In this document: piece by piece, positions 19,005-59,919 of the stretch
Numbering within the stretch: the first letter of the stretch is position 1
How the letters are laid out: every line of letters begins with the position of its first letter
Assembly (NCBI GenBank): GCA_026027325.1
Contig: JAMSLZ010000020.1
Span: 361,738 to 425,737 of the forward strand
Direction of reading: 5' to 3'
Origin: Actinomucor elegans
Taxonomy: Eukaryota; Mucoromycota; Mucoromycetes; Mucorales; Mucoraceae
Length of the DNA: 64,000 nt
Notes under the pieces: model-generated
Seen by the model: only the letters and a program-made list of their open reading frames with translations
Told to the model about the DNA's origin: nothing
Database searches by the model: none
Position numbers and translations under genes: made by a program

Positions 19005-19007
19005 ATC

Positions 19008-19289
19008 GGAGGTCATACAGATACTCGCAATTGTTGTACAATTACTCGTACAGGTTCTGGGTTAGTGGATGACCTTAGGTATTTACTCATGGGCATATTT
19101 TTGGCTGCTGTGATGTTCTCTGGATATGTGTACCCATTTAAATGGCTATTTCCAATTTTTAAAACGGCTAGAAATATTTGGAATGCCGGAGACATATTGT
19201 ATAACCACATTCTATTGCACCCGGTCATCCACTAACCCAGAACCTGTACGAGTAATTGTACAACAATTGCGAGTATCTGTATGACCTCC
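19008..19289 (+). repeat. Left 282-bp terminal direct repeat unit with inverted ends
   Basis: About 66 bp at each end of the unit are inverted copies (GGAGGTCATACAGATACTCG...). The central ~150 bp are unique and in the same orientation as in the right unit (23183-23464). The unit could itself be a MITE, or act as a structured terminus. Confidence 0.85.
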
Positions 19290-19433
19290 TAGTGGGATAT
19301 CTCACCACACACTGGTAGACATACGTTCCATAGCAAGGTAGTAGAGAGGGGGGGGGGGCCAAAAGGGATGATCTTGTCCAGAGACCTGAATAGTTTCAGC
19401 CCCCCCTGGGAATGGAAACTAAGGAGCCTAAGG
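19290..19433. repeat. Left inner terminal inverted repeat (144 bp)
   Basis: Reverse complement of 23039-23182, including an 11-base G run (C run on the right). Bounded by TA where it meets the 282-bp unit. Confidence 0.88.
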
Positions 19434-19512
19434 CTACACTGTAGGACTGGGAGTGAACAACAGCATTTGGTAGCATACAACTCCTATTATACTACAGCAT
19501 TCTTAAATAAAC

Positions 19513-20587
19513 ATGTTTCCGAAAGAAATAGTAGATGCGTTTACGTTGCTTATGGCGACTTACTGGCAGTTTCTTTCTAAAGATTGGCCAGTGTTGGAAA
19601 AGACTAAGTATCACCGGTCTGAGGTTAAGCCTGTAAAAGATATCCAGCATGTAAAAACTTATGTGTTGGAGCATCTTGGCTACATACCTGTTTTTTTCTT
19701 TCTCGTAGAGCTGTTTGCAAACCAAGAATATCCTGGTCCATATTCCAACGTGGACAAAGGATTGTTGATAATCTACCAGCTTCTTACCGGTTGTTCTATT
19801 GCGCATATGGCACGTTTCATCCCTTCTAGTAGCTACCATGCTATTTACAATGCCTTTTATATAAAATACGGAGAGGAGCTGAATACCTGTTTGGACTATT
19901 GCCTACGAAAGATGTTCTCCTCAACAAAGCTGCGAATTATGTGTGCTCTTCACCGAAACCCTGAAGATTTTAAGCATGTTTTACCTTGATGATAGATGGA
20001 CATGATTCTAGAGCAACATATATCAACGCTGCAGATCATGCCATGTTCTATTCGTATAAGCTTAAGAAGTCTGGCTTCCGAACACAAGTATGTACAGATG
20101 TTAATGGGATGGTGTTGTTTGTCTCCGATGCGGCACCATGTTCAGATAACAACGATGGGTCTATGCTTGCTGATATGCGGTTGAAGAAGAAGATTAGTAA
20201 GTACGATTGTGTTGTCGTTGATGGTGGATACACTACTTTTATAGATCGTATTCTAGCAAATAATCGTCACCTGGATCGCCATAATTTTGTATTCCCTATC
20301 CGTAAGTCTCGAGGAGTGGGTCTGAAACAAGAAGAAGTTAATTACAACTCCATTCTTGGAAGCTTTCGTTCCTCGATAGAAGCAACGTTTGGAGAGATTG
20401 GAACCTTATTTCAACGATTCAACGGTAAAGGCGTTATTCGAGTTACCGAGATGGAGACATTCACGGTACAGTTCAAGCTTGCATGTCTTCTTGCAAACAT
20501 CAAGAAGTTTGTTAACATTGGGTGTGTTTCTAGCTCTGAACAACATACTTTTTGGATGCAGCCTAACTTCGACTTTCCAAATGGCAG
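19513..20587 (+). pseudogene. DDE transposase part of the transposase-chromodomain protein, one frameshift
   Basis: The first segment (19513-19986) encodes the helical N-terminal region, with YPGPYSNVDKGLLIIYQLLT and IPSSSYHAIYNAFYI. The catalytic segment follows in the -1 frame from about 19983: first Asp in TLMIDGHDSR, second Asp in VVVDGGY, and Glu in SSIEATFGEIGTLFQRF, the DDE_Tnp_4/Harbinger-like pattern. The AT-rich homologue at 57754-59231 reads through here without a gap, so two extra T in GTTTTACC (19978-19985) break the frame. This may be mutation, assembly error or slippage. The frame runs to PNGS at 20587, where a solo LTR interrupts it; the stop at 20643-20645 is LTR-derived. Expected role: cut-and-paste transposition from the inverted termini. 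Confidence 0.8.
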
Positions 20588-20872
20588 TGTGGTGAAATCC
20601 ACATATAACATTCTACATTATATTAAAAAGACGGGATTCATTTAATAACTATCCATCAAAAGAGGGAGTTTTGAATCACCGCTGAAAATACAATTAATGA
20701 AGAATGAACATAGATTAAAAAGACCTTTGATTGTTACTAAGAGACCATTTCTTTGGAAGTATAAATACAAGAGATACAAGCTAGATAGAAAAACTTAACT
20801 CACTTTGAATCAATAAAACCCCATAAAACGGTTCTAACTGATTCACTCGCTTTTTATTCAATTTTTACCGCA
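20588..20872 (+). mobile_element. Solo LTR (family 1, 285 bp) inside the transposase gene
   Basis: Starts TGTGGTGAAATCC, ends TTTTTACCGCA, and is flanked by the exact 5-bp duplication GGCAG (20583-20587 and 20873-20877). It contains a TATAAATA box (about 20760) and AATAAA (about 20811). Removing it with one GGCAG joins the transposase frame to the chromodomain frame. A second copy is at 39062-39344. Confidence 0.93.
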
Positions 20873-21214
20873 GGCAGCAGTAAGAATGTCTATGACGTAG
20901 TAAGTACCCTTACAATTGCGGAAAAGTCCCAAGATGCTGAGATGGTAAAAGAAATACAGCAGCAGTTTCTCTCTTTGGGGGTGAACGAAGATAATGGCTC
21001 TGATGACGAACCCATCGACGAGGACTTACCACAAGGACACTACGAGGTTGAGGCCATTGTTGGGCATCGTGGACCAAAGCATCGTAGAGAGTATTTGGTT
21101 AGGTGGGTAGGCTATGATGAGAGTAGCAATAGTTGGCTTTCTCCTAACAACTTCGACGACTCTGATATTATTATCGAGTATGAGAAAGACGTTAGAAGAA
21201 GGCGGAAGAAGTAG
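20873..21214 (+). pseudogene. Chromodomain C-terminal part of the transposase, cut off by the solo LTR
   Basis: In the frame of ATG 20942 the sequence is open back through the LTR junction (GSSKNVYDVVSTLTIAEK). An acidic linker (GSDDEPIDEDLP) is followed by a canonical chromodomain: YEVEAIVGHRG, EYLVRWVGYDESSNSWL and NNFDDSDIIIEY, then a basic tail RRRRKK. The aromatic-cage positions (Y, W, and W in NSWL) are present, so methyl-lysine histone binding is plausible, as for chromoviral integrases that target heterochromatin. The AT-rich relative carries transposase and chromodomain in one protein, supporting an original fusion. ATG 20942 might allow a free chromodomain protein driven from the LTR promoter. 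Confidence 0.85.
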
Positions 21215-21311
21215 GTTCCACAAGGGGATGTTTTTTAAAACTTGTTAAAATATATGGAATATTTAAGCCTTTTAAAGCACATGGTAGCATATTCTAAGCA
21301 TATACTACACA

Positions 21312-22982
21312 ATGCCCCTTAGTAAAATCTTTATAGATTACAACCAATACCTTAGTAATATCTATGGTGTCGATTACACTTGTGGTAGCGCGACGAGAGA
21401 ACGTGTGGGCTGGGATTATGTTAGCGCAGTATTCTGCGACAGCATTGTCTTCTGGTGTGCTGTACATTGGGAACAAGAGAAGCTAAGTTCTGCTGTAGGA
21501 ATGTACATGAGCATTCTTCGGCTTCTTCTATCCCGTCACCTACAAGTGGAGCAGTTCAAGCTCTTTTACACTGGTAGGGGTAAATGGCATGCTGGTGAAG
21601 ATAAACTTGTCAACGACATCCAACAAAGGGAGGCAAAAGAATCAGGTATTAGCTGGGATAAATACCAGCCAGGCTATATATCGCTGAGAGTTTCGTTTGA
21701 GAATATCAGCTATGGGGAACTGTGGCCAAAGCTTAAGAAGATATGCTGTAAGGTTGCAAAGAATTATATCCTTTTACATGACTTGGATATAAGCATCGAC
21801 TGCGCCTACATATCAACACGCGATATTATTAAGGAGTACATTACTTCTAATGGCGTAGAAGATAAAGATATTGTCAACGATCGTCACTCAGTCGGTGATA
21901 ACTGCTTATCATGGAGGCAGCATGATAGTTCTAGTGCTAAGATACCCTTACGAATAAAGATCTATAACAAGTTTGTCCAAATGCTTGAAAGCCGTGAATT
22001 AAGGTCTTTAATCGGCTCCCAATTGCACCACTTGGTTTCTAACCCTGACAAAGATTTTCAAGAGCGCCTTAATAAGTATCGTGGTAATGGTATGACCAGA
22101 ATAGAAATTACGTTTTATAACACCCAACTCAAGAAGGAAAGCTATTATACCAAAACTATGTCTAGGGTCCTTGAGTTCCTTGATAATTGTCCAACATACA
22201 AGGTCAGCTTCGACAGACAATGGAAGCAACTAGCTAAGAACCTTACGCAAATGGCAGCTATATATGTTCCCAAAACAAAGACTTTCGCTTACTGCCATTG
22301 GTGGAACTCCCTTACCAAGCGAATGCAAGGCATAATTCATACAAAAGTACCAGAAGAGTACGTAATGCTCCATCTTGCAAACTTTAGCTTTAACGATAGG
22401 CCCATCCACTATCTGGTAGTTAAGTTTGAGAAGAATAGTCATGAATATAAGATACTCGAAGACAGCATATATCGTCGTGAAGAAGGATGTTCTGCCATCA
22501 CGTTGGTTCCAGGGATATCTAACTCCTTAACACCCTATAGAAAGGATTTAACCAACAAAGCAGCTTCTTTTGGTGATTTAGGGATTTGTTCTTTCCGCAA
22601 CATCACCCTCGAATGGCCAAAAAGTAGACTGCGACCTGAAAGAGGAGATAAACTTGCGACCATCAGGTTGGCCAAGGAGACACATGATGATAAACTATTA
22701 CAGCATCTAGATCCCTTCCCAGTGTCTGGAGCTAAACCAGATTATTCTTTCATGAAAGTAGGTGTGAAGTACCAAGTAACCGGATATGGTTATGGTACAT
22801 TCCGAAGTAAGAACTATCTCCACTTACGGCTGTCCAATGGTACCTCAGTCCGTTGCAGTCCAGGTTTAAAACAAGTTGTAGAGAAGCAACTAGAGAAGCA
22901 TACCTTGTTCTATGTTTGTCTAATTCGAGTAAAGAAAGTACGTGGTGTTCGTGATGTAGAATGCGAGATCACCAACGTATGA
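21312..22982 (+). CDS. 556-aa transposon partner protein with weak similarity to Rep_trans-type replication initiators
   Basis: One intact ORF in the inner part of the transposon, 97 bp after the chromodomain stop. There is no signal or membrane segment. Motifs in order are: HDLDISIDCAY (about residues 156-166), LRIKIYNKFVQMLESRELRS (about 213-232) and GMTRIEITFYN (about 260-270). The succession D-x-D-x2-x-D, then R-x-Y-x-K, then R-x-E recalls plasmid rolling-circle initiators of the Rep_trans class; no HUH motif is seen. The C-terminal third has an OB-like beta-rich stretch (KYQVTGYGYGTFRSKNYLHL). The function is unknown: it could nick or bind the structured 282-bp termini. No other family is recognised. 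Preservation of a 1.67-kb frame next to a broken transposase suggests recent activity. Confidence 0.6.
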   Translation: MPLSKIFIDYNQYLSNIYGVDYTCGSATRERVGWDYVSAVFCDSIVFWCAVHWEQEKLSSAVGMYMSILRLLLSRHLQVEQFKLFYTGRGKWHAGEDKLVNDIQQREAKESGISWDKYQPGYISLRVSFENISYGELWPKLKKICCKVAKNYILLHDLDISIDCAYISTRDIIKEYITSNGVEDKDIVNDRHSVGDNCLSWRQHDSSSAKIPLRIKIYNKFVQMLESRELRSLIGSQLHHLVSNPDKDFQERLNKYRGNGMTRIEITFYNTQLKKESYYTKTMSRVLEFLDNCPTYKVSFDRQWKQLAKNLTQMAAIYVPKTKTFAYCHWWNSLTKRMQGIIHTKVPEEYVMLHLANFSFNDRPIHYLVVKFEKNSHEYKILEDSIYRREEGCSAITLVPGISNSLTPYRKDLTNKAASFGDLGICSFRNITLEWPKSRLRPERGDKLATIRLAKETHDDKLLQHLDPFPVSGAKPDYSFMKVGVKYQVTGYGYGTFRSKNYLHLRLSNGTSVRCSPGLKQVVEKQLEKHTLFYVCLIRVKKVRGVRDVECEITNV

Positions 22983-23038
22983 GTACTTGTTTTTTAAAAG
23001 CTTCGCCCAACTGTCAACACATGTTACTCGTACTACAA

Positions 23039-23182
23039 CCTTAGGCTCCTTAGTTTCCATTCCCAGGGGGGGCTGAAACTATTCAGGTCTCTGGACAAGA
23101 TCATCCCTTTTGGCCCCCCCCCCCTCTCTACTACCTTGCTATGGAACGTATGTCTACCAGTGTGTGGTGAGATATCCCACTA
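23039..23182. repeat. Right inner terminal inverted repeat (144 bp)
   Basis: Inverse of 19290-19433, ending GATATCCCACTA against the right 282-bp unit. Confidence 0.88.
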
Positions 23183-23464
23183 GGAGGTCATACAGATACT
23201 CGCAATTGTTGTACAATTACTCGTACAGGTTCTGGGTTAGTGGATGACCTTAGGTATTTACTCATGGGCATATTTTTGGCTGCTGTGATGTTCTCTGGAT
23301 ATGTGTACCCATTTAAATGGCTATTTCCAATTTTTAAAACGGCTAGAAATATTTGGAATGCCGGAGACATATTGTATAACCACATTCTATTGCACCCGGT
23401 CATCCACTAACCCAGAACCTGTACGAGTAATTGTACAACAATTGCGAGTATCTGTATGACCTCC
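23183..23464 (+). repeat. Right 282-bp terminal direct repeat unit
   Basis: Same sequence and same orientation as 19008-19289; it ends GTATGACCTCC and is followed by the duplicated ATC. Confidence 0.85.
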
Positions 23465-23741
23465 ATCGTAGATCCATTCAATGTCTCGGTCCCTCGAATT
23501 TGACATTTGATCTAGTGTTACACCTAGATTCTTATTGTTCTCGAGTGATCGCAGATCAAATGCATTGACTCTGGATAGTTACTCGGTGCTCTGCTGCAGA
23601 AGATGAATGTTTTACGCTGGTTATGTTTCTGATGCTTCAGTATTCACAATCTAATGGTCTTTAGATTGGTGATTGTATATGTTGTGATTAGAAGCCAGTT
23701 ATTGAAGTTGCTGATGGTTTATCCGGTTGTACTTGTAGAAT

Positions 23742-24244
23742 TGTTATATCCGGTGCTAAAGACGAAGGATATAATTTAAAATACAATAATAAAAGAATAG
23801 ACAGTAAATGGAATCAGCTATCCTGATAGTAAAAGTTATTCTCATCTTTATTCACAATTCAAAATCAAGTCTTCTTTATATACATTTCATCAGAGCTTAA
23901 TAGTGTAGCATTCAATATCTATCAGCACGCATGGCCGTACAACGGAGTCCAATCCCAGCAGCCACTAATAAGCCTTTCAACCACGCATTGTTGTAATTGT
24001 ATAACCCACGCGTTATTCGATATTCAGGTCTTATCTTGAGATACACTCGATACTACTCGATAGTATGATGCCGCGTGTTTCTTGTAAGGATTATTGGCTA
24101 ATAGTTCTAAGGATGACACATCGCTTGTATTTATGCAGGCCTCGTTAATCTGATTGGGTTATCAGATAGAGTCCGTGTATGACATAAATGAACAGTTGAT
24201 TCCTTACTATTATGTCGATGCAAAATAGTAGGTGGAATACAACA
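23742..24244 (+). mobile_element. Solo LTR, family 4 (503 bp)
   Basis: Begins TGTTATATCCGGTGC and ends GGTGGAATACAACA (TG...CA). A shorter copy is at 37079-37362 and an end fragment lies at about 18222-18242. No clear 5-bp duplication. All copies lie within about 500 bp of a tRNA gene. Confidence 0.75.
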
Positions 24245-35662: not shown

Positions 35663-36099
35663 TGCGGTAAAGATTGAATAAAAAGCGAGTGAATCAGTTA
35701 GAACCGTTTTATGGGGTTTTATTGATTCAAAGTGAGCTTTTTTTGTCTTTTCTATCTAGCTTGTATCTCTTGCATTTATACTTTGTTGTGTTTGCACAGT
35801 GAAATAATAAAGATCAAAAGAAGTACTTTTTGAGACTGTGCTTTATTATCAAAGATAAATATAAGATGAAGATCCTATAACTATGTCTAAACTAAACCTA
35901 TTTATACTAATCGTCTATTTAAGTGTGGTGAAGAGGATTTAAGAAGATGTTATGTTATAGGTATATGTTCTAGATATATATCCATCTGAGACATGAATCT
36001 TAAACATATCAACTCATGAGTACTTCCGTAGAGATGAGATTGATAATGAATAAGTTATTATTCATACAATAGTCTCTATTCTATAACATACTTCCAAGT
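35663..36099 (-). mobile_element. Family-1 LTR fragment (minus), split by another solo LTR
   Basis: 35663-35783 (TGCGGTAAAGATTG...) matches the family-1 LTR at 39062 in reverse orientation. It resumes at 36090-36099 (TACTTCCAAG) after the insertion at 35784-36089 and is then cut off at 36099. Confidence 0.75.
35784..36089. mobile_element. Solo LTR, family 3 (306 bp)
   Basis: TGTTGTGTTTGCAC...CTATAACA, flanked by the 5-bp duplication TACTT (35779-35783 and 36090-36094). It interrupts the family-1 LTR. Confidence 0.85.
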
Positions 36100-39061: not shown

Positions 39062-39344
39062 TGCGGTAAAAATTGAATAAAAAGCGAGTGAATCAGTTAG
39101 AACCGTTTTATGGGGTTTTATTGATTCAAAGTGAGTTTTTTTTCTATCTAGCTTGTATCTCTTGTATTTATACTTCCAAAGAAATGGTCTCTTAGTAACA
39201 ATCAAAGGTCTTTTTAATCTATGTTCATTCTTCATTAATTGTATTTTCAGCGGTGATTCAAAACTCCCTCTTTTGATGGATAGTTATTAAATGAATCCCG
39301 TCTTTTTAATATAATGCAGAATGTTATATGTGGATTTCACCACA
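39062..39344 (-). mobile_element. Solo LTR, family 1 (283 bp) inside element D
   Basis: Reverse orientation (TGCGGTAAAAATTG...TTTCACCACA) with the 5-bp duplication AGCAC (39057-39061, 39345-39349). Removing it restores the frame L-A-L-L-K-F. Confidence 0.92.
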
Positions 39345-57753: not shown

Positions 57754-59231
57754 TTAATTATTTTCTATTGATTTCCAATAATTCAAAATAGTATCATGTG
57801 ATGTAAAATCTTTTTCTTTTACCCATGAATTATGTTCTTTACCATACTTTTTCCATTTTACAAAATATTCATATAAGTTCTTTACTTTTTTGTGTTTAAT
57901 TATATATTGTATTTCATATATATTTTGATCATTATTACTAGTGATATCTTCCTCCATTTGATCCATAATATCTATATTCACTTCATTTATATTTAAATTA
58001 TTTAAAAATTGATTTTGTAATGATTTTATATCAACGATATTTTCTATTTTATATTGTGTTTTTAATGTTACTTCTTTATTCATTTCAATATTATTTTTAT
58101 AATAATAATCAAAATTATCATTTAGCCATTTGTTGTAATGGGCATTTTCTTCAATTCCAAATAACTCTGTAAAATATTTTATGTTCAGTAATACTATTGC
58201 TAATTTTAGCTGTATATTATATGTCTTATTATCTGTTATTCTAATCTTATTTTGTCCACTAAATCTTTTAAAAATACTACCTAATTCTGCAAAATATTTT
58301 CTATTTTTGACCTTAATCCACCTAATTCTTCATTGAATTTTTTTTCATCTATGGTTAATTCAACTCCTTTATCTTTTTTTATAGGATAGCAAAAATTTTT
58401 CAAGGATATATTAAATCCAATATTACTAAATTTTTCTATAAATTCTTTTACTGTGTTTTCATATAATCCATCAAAACATATACAATCTATTTCATTATAA
58501 AACTTATTGATATTTATGTCTAAAAGCATTTTATCATCAGTATTATTTCTACAAGGTAAGGAATCAGATATATAAACACATATTCTATTAATATCTATAA
58601 TAAATTGTGTATTTAATCCATTTCTTTTTAATTTATACGAGAATAACTCTTTTTTATCTAGATTAATATCTTGATATGTTATACGATTATGGTGACCATC
58701 AATTAGTAATGTTACATTATCTAACATCATTGGATTAAATTTCTTAGCACAAAGTAATCTCAATGTATGTGTAGAAAAACATTTTTCTAATTTATTATTT
58801 ATCCATTTTTCCAATAAATCATAATTATTTATATATAATGATTGATATAATTTATAAAAACTAGTAGATGGAATATACATTTCCATTTCATTTATAGATT
58901 TTCCATTTAATAAATGTTCTAATAATATCAATACTTTATCTGCTGTTATATATGGACCTGGTAGTTTTATATTGTTACATAAATCTGTCAAAAATACAAA
59001 TGGAGCAATACTTCCTAATTTAATATATATATTTTTTTTAATTCTATCAATATTTGGTATACTCGTTATTTTAGATCTATGATATTTCAATTCAACTTTA
59101 TATATATATTCATTTTTCATAAATTTCCAATACCTATTGTAAATATTTCTGTATTCATTTTCAATTAATAAGTCTATATGAGTGTTCATAAACAAATAAA
59201 ATGATGTATTTTTATATAAAGAGAAATTCAA
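57754..59231 (-). pseudogene. DDE transposase-chromodomain fusion (AT-rich relative), one frameshift
   Basis: The first frame (59231 to about 58285) has LPGPYITADKVLILLEHLLN and IPSTSFYKLYQSLYI. First Asp in NVTLLIDGHHNR, second Asp in CICFDGLYE, Glu in LRSKIEN. A missing base near 58290 (in ATTTT) shifts the frame; the other frame continues FAELGSIFKRFSG, runs open through NIKYFTELFGIEENAHYN, and passes without a stop into an N/I-rich linker and chromodomain (YEIQYIIKHKKV, YEYFVKWKKYGKEHNSW). Alignment with 19513-21214 is clear over the whole length, which proves the two-domain fusion is ancestral. Confidence 0.85.
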
Positions 59232-59279: not shown

Positions 59280-59647
59280 TCAATTTTTAATATTTTCTAT
59301 ATTTTCCAAGAACTTATGATTTCTTTTTGCATAATCTAACCATGATTTAAAATTATAAATTTCTTTAATACTAACATATCCTTTTCTTAAACACCAGGAT
59401 TTGAAATATTCATTTCTAACTTTTTCGTTATCATCTAAAATTGTTTTTATCACTAAATTGGCATGGATATTTGTATTGTTTTCACCAACATCATAGAAAG
59501 GACCACTATATAAAATTTTATCAATATTTTTATATTTCCAACCCATTGCAGTATTTTCTTGTTTAATATTTCGGATGATTTATTCTTGACATCTTTTTTT
59601 TCAGGATTTAGAGTTAAAACCACAGCATAATAATAGATTTTTTCCAT
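59280..59647 (-). pseudogene. HUH/CRESS-like Rep endonuclease domain, one frameshift
   Basis: Starting MEKIYYYAVVLTLNP (motif I-like beta strand), with a frame change near 59560, then GPFYDVGENNTNIHANLVIK (motif II-like, His followed by hydrophobic and Asn) and IYNFKSWLDYAKRNHKF (motif III-like YxxK with catalytic Tyr). About 120 residues, the size of a stand-alone HUH endonuclease domain. The role would be nicking and rolling-circle-type replication. No helicase domain. Assignment is by motif order only. Confidence 0.45.
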
Positions 59648-59680
59648 TAAATATAATATTGATGTTATTTTAAAAATAAT

Positions 59681-59919
59681 TCTCAAATATTATAGATACT
59701 TTTATATTTTCCAAAATATCATGCCAAGAATTAGATGCCAAGGAAGTTGTTTTTAGATTTCTCAATGTGATTAAACGCAATGGAAGTCTAAAAATAGGAC
59801 AAGATAAACATTTACAACTACTTAATATTTTTAACTTTCCTAAAAAATCAAGGCATAAATATAATGTTGCCTTTTTATCCATAAATAAAATGTTGGTTAC
59901 TTGTTCTATTTTAGAATAA
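59681..59919 (+). other. Open frame without ATG entering the right terminal repeat
   Basis: A plus frame free of stops encodes CQELDAKEVVFRFLNVIKRN and continues into the 220-bp repeat as HLQLLNIFNFPKKSRH, ending TCSILE. Less AT-rich than its surroundings. It could be the 3' exon of another gene of the element or a captured piece. Confidence 0.3.

Follow-up and report, generated by a model that had tools for sequence, protein, structure and literature searches.

How does a DDE transposon come to be bounded by long repeats in direct orientation, and what might a second protein that looks like a replication initiator be doing inside it? The question is raised by an element in a 64,000-nucleotide stretch of the Actinomucor elegans genome (assembly GCA_026027325.1, contig JAMSLZ010000020.1, positions 361,738 to 425,737), referred to below as the window. 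The element occupies window positions 19008-23464, with ATC on both flanks, in a genome of 36.5 Mb on 27 contigs. A DDE transposase gene and a gene for a 556-amino-acid (aa) protein lie between its two 282-bp terminal units. A preliminary description of this DNA had read it as a chromatin-targeted transposon with terminal direct repeats and a Rep-like partner. Across the genome, the block with its units inserts with 3-bp target duplications, single units insert too, the loops of the units occur in either orientation and the ends within a copy share private variants. The explanation that we favour, with a probability of about one half, is a two-gene DDE transposon related to the PHIS (PIF/Harbinger-ISL2EU-Spy) group, forming a block bounded by mobile foldback units whose hairpins are processed by a nickase resembling the Rep_trans replication initiators.

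The element belongs to a real mobile family, with 21 near-identical copies and paralogous empty sites. A pattern search of the genome for the inner 144-bp terminal inverted repeat (TIR), allowing up to two mismatches, found 21 forward and 21 reverse sites, and a search for the junction between unit and TIR, with one mismatch at most, returned 21 + 21 sites at the same positions. Units stand at both ends of all 21 elements, the outer arm of one unit being truncated in copy C22. Since all 42 inner TIR ends adjoin a unit, the ends of the element have the layout A-loop-A'-D: arm, loop, inverted arm and inner TIR. In each 282-bp unit, two perfectly inverted 67-bp arms enclose a 148-bp loop, and as single-stranded DNA the unit folds far better than shuffled sequences (z -19.2). 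In the window element the two units are 100% identical and directly oriented, and the inner 144-bp repeats are 100% complementary, as first described. The same description had set the element apart as lacking terminal inverted repeats; it does end in them, because the outermost 67-bp arms are inverted. The element bodies vary at 30 of 3315 positions across the 21 copies (short, split and palindromic copies cover the body partly); this near-identity points to a recent amplification of the family.

When the two bodies at locus L029 are taken once, there are 20 insertions, of which 19 are testable, C22 being truncated. Identical 3-bp flanks were found outside the units in 16 of these 19: ATC, CCT, ACA, ATT, ATA, TGA, TAT, TAT, ATT, GTA, AAA, CGG, ACT, GGT, AAT and AGT. 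The ATC duplication reported for the window element is borne out by two paralogous empty sites with a single ATC (L013, L026), and empty sites with a single triplet exist for several other elements and for some solo units; one junction match (C8a in L017) was dropped as the element's own flank. The element at C26:5088-7490 has a paralogous empty site, with GGT present once, in the window itself (23715-23794).

The arm matched the genome 58 times in forward and 59 times in reverse orientation, which corresponds to about 58 units; at least 40 copies of the 282-bp unit are exact. Elements account for 41 of the units (L029 shares one), leaving roughly 17 solo units, an estimate that rests on the best 100 of the 117 arm matches. 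Matching triplets flank four of the seven solo units of a first set. Among nine further unit stretches, triplets match in L040, L044 and L046, and L045 is a partial stretch; in L039, L041, L042, L043 and L047 the unit (partial in L047) lies at one common GTA/CGA context inside another repeat, since multiplied. The unit seems to move also as an independent foldback element, because L040 and L044 keep perfect arms around diverged loops. About a tenth of the loop has diverged in the solo unit at L040:196-480, and both its 67-bp arms are identical to those of the family, so that they seem to have been conserved or converted. Some solo units could have been left by recombination between direct units. 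Unmatched flanks, found in 3 of the 19 insertions (C12b, C21bc, C26b) and in 3 of the 7 solo units, suggest ectopic recombination.

The two units are in direct orientation in the window copy, but other arrangements occur: of 20 elements, 11 have direct units and 9 have inverted ones. Relative to the body, the loops are ++ in 6 elements, +- in 8, -- in 5 and -+ in 1 (the palindromic copy, C4, is omitted; C21b, the lone -+, shares one unit with C21c). One end's orientation is no guide to the other's (Fisher P 0.35), and orientation differs between elements that have derived single-nucleotide polymorphisms (SNPs) in common (C12a/C22, C1a/C26b, C8a/C8d). Two loop SNPs were found among the 20 elements (L031, L032), each private and each present at both ends of its copy. 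A variant of the inner TIR is carried at both ends by four elements and at one end by a fifth; when ends are shuffled among elements, four or more such both-end pairs arise at P 0.0006. On balance, copying or conversion passes sequence between the ends, and loop inversion is frequent.

The description of the second protein as an intact, Rep-like partner is upheld by its uninterrupted open reading frame (ORF) and by its predicted structure. The model (pLDDT, the predicted local distance difference test, 93) has a fold like that of the TATA-binding protein (TBP), as in the Rep_trans rolling-circle initiators, and RepDE ranked first in a Foldseek comparison with the PDB, as a weak match (E 1.5e-3). 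In the available part of PMC4797284, the Rep_trans active site comprises the metal ligands D46, D142 and E214 and the series R140-D142-A144-D146 and R189-Y191-K193-E196 (Q184 in RepSTK1), together with R212-E214. The 556-aa protein presents D43 in strand 41-52, D159-x-[A/T/S]161-x-D163 in strand 153-165, K216-x-Y218-x-K220-x-x-Q223 running from strand 212-219 into helix 220-226, and R263-x-E265 in strand 261-269, a correspondence that rests on sequence order and secondary structure and in which T176/Y178/G180 of Rep_trans are not placed. Y218, K220 and Q223 are found in 64 of 64 aligned sequences, as are D163 (D146 of Rep_trans) and R263 (R212); D43, D159 and E265 are found in 63. The position of R189 is taken by K216, a lysine in all 64, that of A144 is alanine in 29, and that of R140 is D157, an aspartate in 48. 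The signature never arose from shuffled conserved letters (0/300000), a figure that is descriptive only, the signature having been set with both protein and paper already known.

The 556-aa protein has no Pfam family at E <= 1, and comparison with PDB sequences, PHROGs, NCBIfam, phages, and viral and GTDB contigs gave nothing convincing. The hidden Markov model of PF02486, the Rep_trans family, has no match in the genome at E <= 10 and does match the Bacillus subtilis control; neither PF02486 nor Myb/SANT is among the best 25 of the 38 Pfam families found for the 64 members. No Pfam family of HUH nickases or superfamily 3 (SF3) helicases was found on the 469-aa transposase or on the 556-aa protein, the C-terminal part of whose model is barely covered by the fold comparison. 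Judged by the model, the partner is probably a Rep_trans-like nickase that processes the hairpin ends of the element, and we infer that it nicks DNA.

The preliminary description had named other copies lacking the units or the 556-aa gene as evidence that would refute it. The units are present in 21 of 21 elements, but the gene is absent from nine (eight short, one palindromic) and is therefore not needed in cis. Long-form elements number twelve, six of which have a complete, uninterrupted 556-aa frame. In the eight short forms, all without the gene, the limits of the deletion agree within a few bases in an alignment of all eight, and the six junctions that were read all lie at a repeated T6A4 tract; these shared limits and the tract make a single deletion, or a recurrent one, possible. 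The palindromic element (L015:3336-4810), a snap-back-like derivative with ATA duplications on both sides, consists of a unit, a TIR and the first ~300 bp of the transposase part, followed by the same inverted.

How the two proteins might act on such ends can be pictured as follows. The DDE protein would make its cuts at the outer unit ends and insert the element, while its chromodomain would bias insertion to transposon-rich chromatin. The Rep_trans-like protein would nick the hairpin units, those of short copies in trans. Synthesis that starts at the nick and runs through the foldback would invert the loop, copy one end onto the other and rebuild the ends. The outcome would be flip/flop isomers and homogenised ends, as in parvoviruses, where terminal resolution yields flip/flop ends. 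The snap-back-like derivative would fit such nick-primed copying. Both the replicative step and the chromatin targeting, which had already been proposed, are presumed here. A bolder version, that of a DDE transposon replicating its own ends in rolling-hairpin style through a Rep_trans-family nickase on parvovirus-like hairpins, with copy-making coupled to cut-and-paste insertion and targeting guided by the chromodomain, is offered tentatively.

Several observations run counter to the homogenisation of ends. The lengths of G runs are frequently unequal between the ends of an element; a 7-C variant present at both ends of the window copy is split in C26a; and a substitution in one of the arms of C12a is missing from the others. 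At L029:1213-9251, two long elements lie tail to tail and share one unit, with unmatched outer flanks (TAA/ACT). This arrangement would also fit copying from a nick, but recombination explains it better because the flanks do not match, and the insertion of a dimer is disfavoured on the same grounds. Passive recombination between arms is the main rival, of nearly equal weight, and a substantial possibility in its wider form: two copies of a mobile foldback MITE (miniature inverted-repeat transposable element) enclose a PHIS body, which moves by cut-and-paste; the flips and the homogenisation arise passively by host recombination and gene conversion, among inverted arms and among copies, and the 556-aa protein has an ancillary role (binding DNA, recognising ends or nicking in another step). 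In favour of such a composite, units insert alone with 3-bp duplications (four of seven, plus L040, L044 and L046), some with diverged loops, elements devoid of the partner gene amplify, and the three insertions with unmatched flanks hint at ectopic recombination; the exchange of long TIRs in Drosophila Galileo is likewise ascribed to recombination and conversion in the available part of PMC3573991. It accounts less well for flips that seem to match or outpace single substitutions in 1.5-3.3 kb with arms of only 67 bp, for the presence of the SNP at both ends of both loop-SNP copies, and for Rep_trans-like active-site positions kept across 64 sequences, something that a protein binding only as an accessory could do without.

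The last of these points also bears on a TBP-fold DNA binder that does not nick and serves end recognition or transcription of the element. This is improbable given the (near-)invariance of the tyrosine, its K/Q neighbours and the three carboxylates at Rep_trans positions, and given the first rank of RepDE. That the element might be the remnant of a long terminal repeat (LTR) retroelement, or an assembly artefact, can hardly be entertained. Long terminal direct repeats would suit such a remnant, and chromovirus integrases also combine a DDE domain with a chromodomain. The domain is, however, DDE_Tnp_4 and not an integrase; in the complete copies L014, L019, L020 and L021, each ORF of at least 100 aa is the transposase, the 556-aa protein (in long forms) or an antisense or overlapping frame; and loops in both orientations, together with 16 matched 3-bp duplications across many contigs, speak against remnant and artefact alike. 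The LTR retroelement was rejected on the domain, the loops and the duplications.

Table 1. Features of the window element (window coordinates)
Feature	Position	Strand	Remarks
Target-site duplication ATC, left	19005..19007	.	Sequence; single ATC in paralogous empty sites L013, L026
Left 282-bp foldback unit	19008..19289	+	Arm 19008-19074, loop 19075-19222, inverted arm 19223-19289
Inner 144-bp inverted repeat, left arm ('D' segment)	19290..19433	+	
DDE_Tnp_4-chromodomain transposase gene, broken	19510..21214	+	Open pieces 19510-19986, 19974-20645, 20873-21214
285-bp insertion in transposase gene, solo-LTR-like	20588..20872	.	TG...CA, 5-bp duplication GGCAG; separate repeat family
556-aa gene, Rep_trans-like (TBP-fold) predicted tyrosine nickase	21312..22982	+	ORF intact
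Inner 144-bp inverted repeat, right arm	23039..23182	-	
Right 282-bp foldback unit	23183..23464	+	Arm 23183-23249, loop 23250-23397, inverted arm 23398-23464
Target-site duplication ATC, right	23465..23467	.	As left copy

In the window, the transposase gene is disrupted by the 285-bp insert, among other lesions (Table 1), and its pieces still match DDE_Tnp_4 (1.6e-12) and Chromo (8.6e-11). An original fusion of the two domains, as proposed at the outset, is found in intact copies, which have a single uninterrupted 469-aa ORF (DDE_Tnp_4, PF13359, 1e-11; Chromo, 5.4e-10); because they read through, introns were rejected as an explanation of the broken gene. In 25 aligned sequences, the catalytic triad D161, D236, E289 and the chromodomain residue W434 are invariant, and Y413 and Y437 nearly so; we take W434, Y413 and Y437 to be methyl-lysine cage positions, as in HP1. 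The transposase has 213 homologues, and the best 120 of these, many with a chromodomain, include proteins of Rhizomucor, Lichtheimia, Cunninghamella, Apophysomyces and Mortierella relatives. The fusion, which had been presented as a peculiarity of the element, is common in a Mucoromycota clade and not special to this element. Insertions cluster: with L029 counted once and the set fixed before the later-found solo units, 8 gaps between neighbours among 27 insertions are below 100 kb, against a mean of 1.85, and 3 of 20000 random placements reach this number. This fits targeting by the chromodomain, but also selection against other sites. Further window copies of the solo-LTR-like repeat lie at 35663-35783 and 39062-39344, with others elsewhere in the genome; the right flank of L029 falls inside one.

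At its start, the inner TIR (TAGTGGGATATCT) is similar to the terminal TIR (GACGGACATCT / GACGGATATCT) of the 504-aa family, a relative nested in L018; 8 and 9 of 11 positions agree. The bases adjoining the inner TIR (TA) are symmetrical, not a 3-bp duplication. We infer that an ordinary element gained the mobile unit at one end and that this end was then copied onto the other.

L017 and L025 contain nested members of a related DDE-chromodomain family, of 493 aa, whose small second gene is of another kind: a frame of 136 codons (122 aa counted from its Met). The product of this gene has HUH-like motifs, with a T, an HxN and a Y invariant in 12 sequences, and a ferredoxin-like model, the best structural matches being unspecific, with 2x3g among them; searches of plasmids, viral contigs, the PDB and PHROGs found nothing. 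If it is a HUH nickase, the pairing of a DDE transposase with a replication-type nickase would have arisen more than once in the clade. This family is seen at L017:6270-8204, with 39 full-length identical matches and remnants in the window at 58293-58706 and 59313-59689, and a 428-aa family (L036) has a version of the small gene that is 41% identical. Other nested elements (L024:6639-8553, L028:6000-8099) carry an ORF of 295-310 aa that, to us, recalls Merlin/IS1016 transposases.

Rep_trans enzymes seemed confined to bacteria before archaeal relatives were reported (PMC13107129, available part). If the favoured explanation holds, initiators of this type reach eukaryotes inside a DDE transposon, extending the bacterial and archaeal range, and the terminal design of parvoviruses has been reached convergently by a transposon. 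The ~58 mostly young foldback units of this one genome form a natural system for asking whether the flipping of hairpin ends is active or passive, by what route replication can add copies of a DDE element, and how composites arise from bodies and MITEs.

No account of such an element was found in the literature covered, an earlier description of the chromodomain fusion being possible. Like PHIS elements, it has a DDE_Tnp_4 transposase with a D-D-E triad, 3-bp target duplications and two ORFs. Unlike them, it has a chromodomain fused to the transposase, a partner that is Rep_trans-like and not Myb/SANT, and ends made of 282-bp foldback units; its 16 target triplets fit no single one of the duplication classes in the available part of PMC4482050 (TWA, AT, ANT, CWG, TNA). 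With Rep_trans (PF02486) and the archaeal Rep-Arvir proteins, the partner shares the TBP-like fold, the active-site residues Y, K, Q/E and D/D/E (identically ordered and on matching secondary structure), and hairpin DNA nearby (PMC4797284, PMC13107129, both in their available parts). It differs from Rep_trans in coming from a eukaryotic DDE transposon, in having no PF02486 match, a lysine for R189, no conserved R140 and a long C-terminal part, and in being known here from sequence and model.

The inverted terminal repeat of adeno-associated virus, a parvovirus, has the same A-loop-A'-D layout, with a loop in flip or flop orientation; a snap-back-like derivative is a further likeness. The present element is, by contrast, chromosomal, with target duplications and a DDE transposase, has no HUH/SF3 Rep match and is known here from integrated copies. 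In Drosophila, FB-NOF has a coding body between long foldback-type ends; we know of no Rep_trans-like partner for FB-NOF or Galileo, and both have transposases of other superfamilies. Galileo is alike in such a body and in ends that are exchanged between copies (PMC3573991; the term 'flip' is absent from the available part of that text). As in a composite bounded by foldback elements or MITEs, finally, the terminal unit is mobile alone, as seen from solo units with 3-bp duplications and empty sites.

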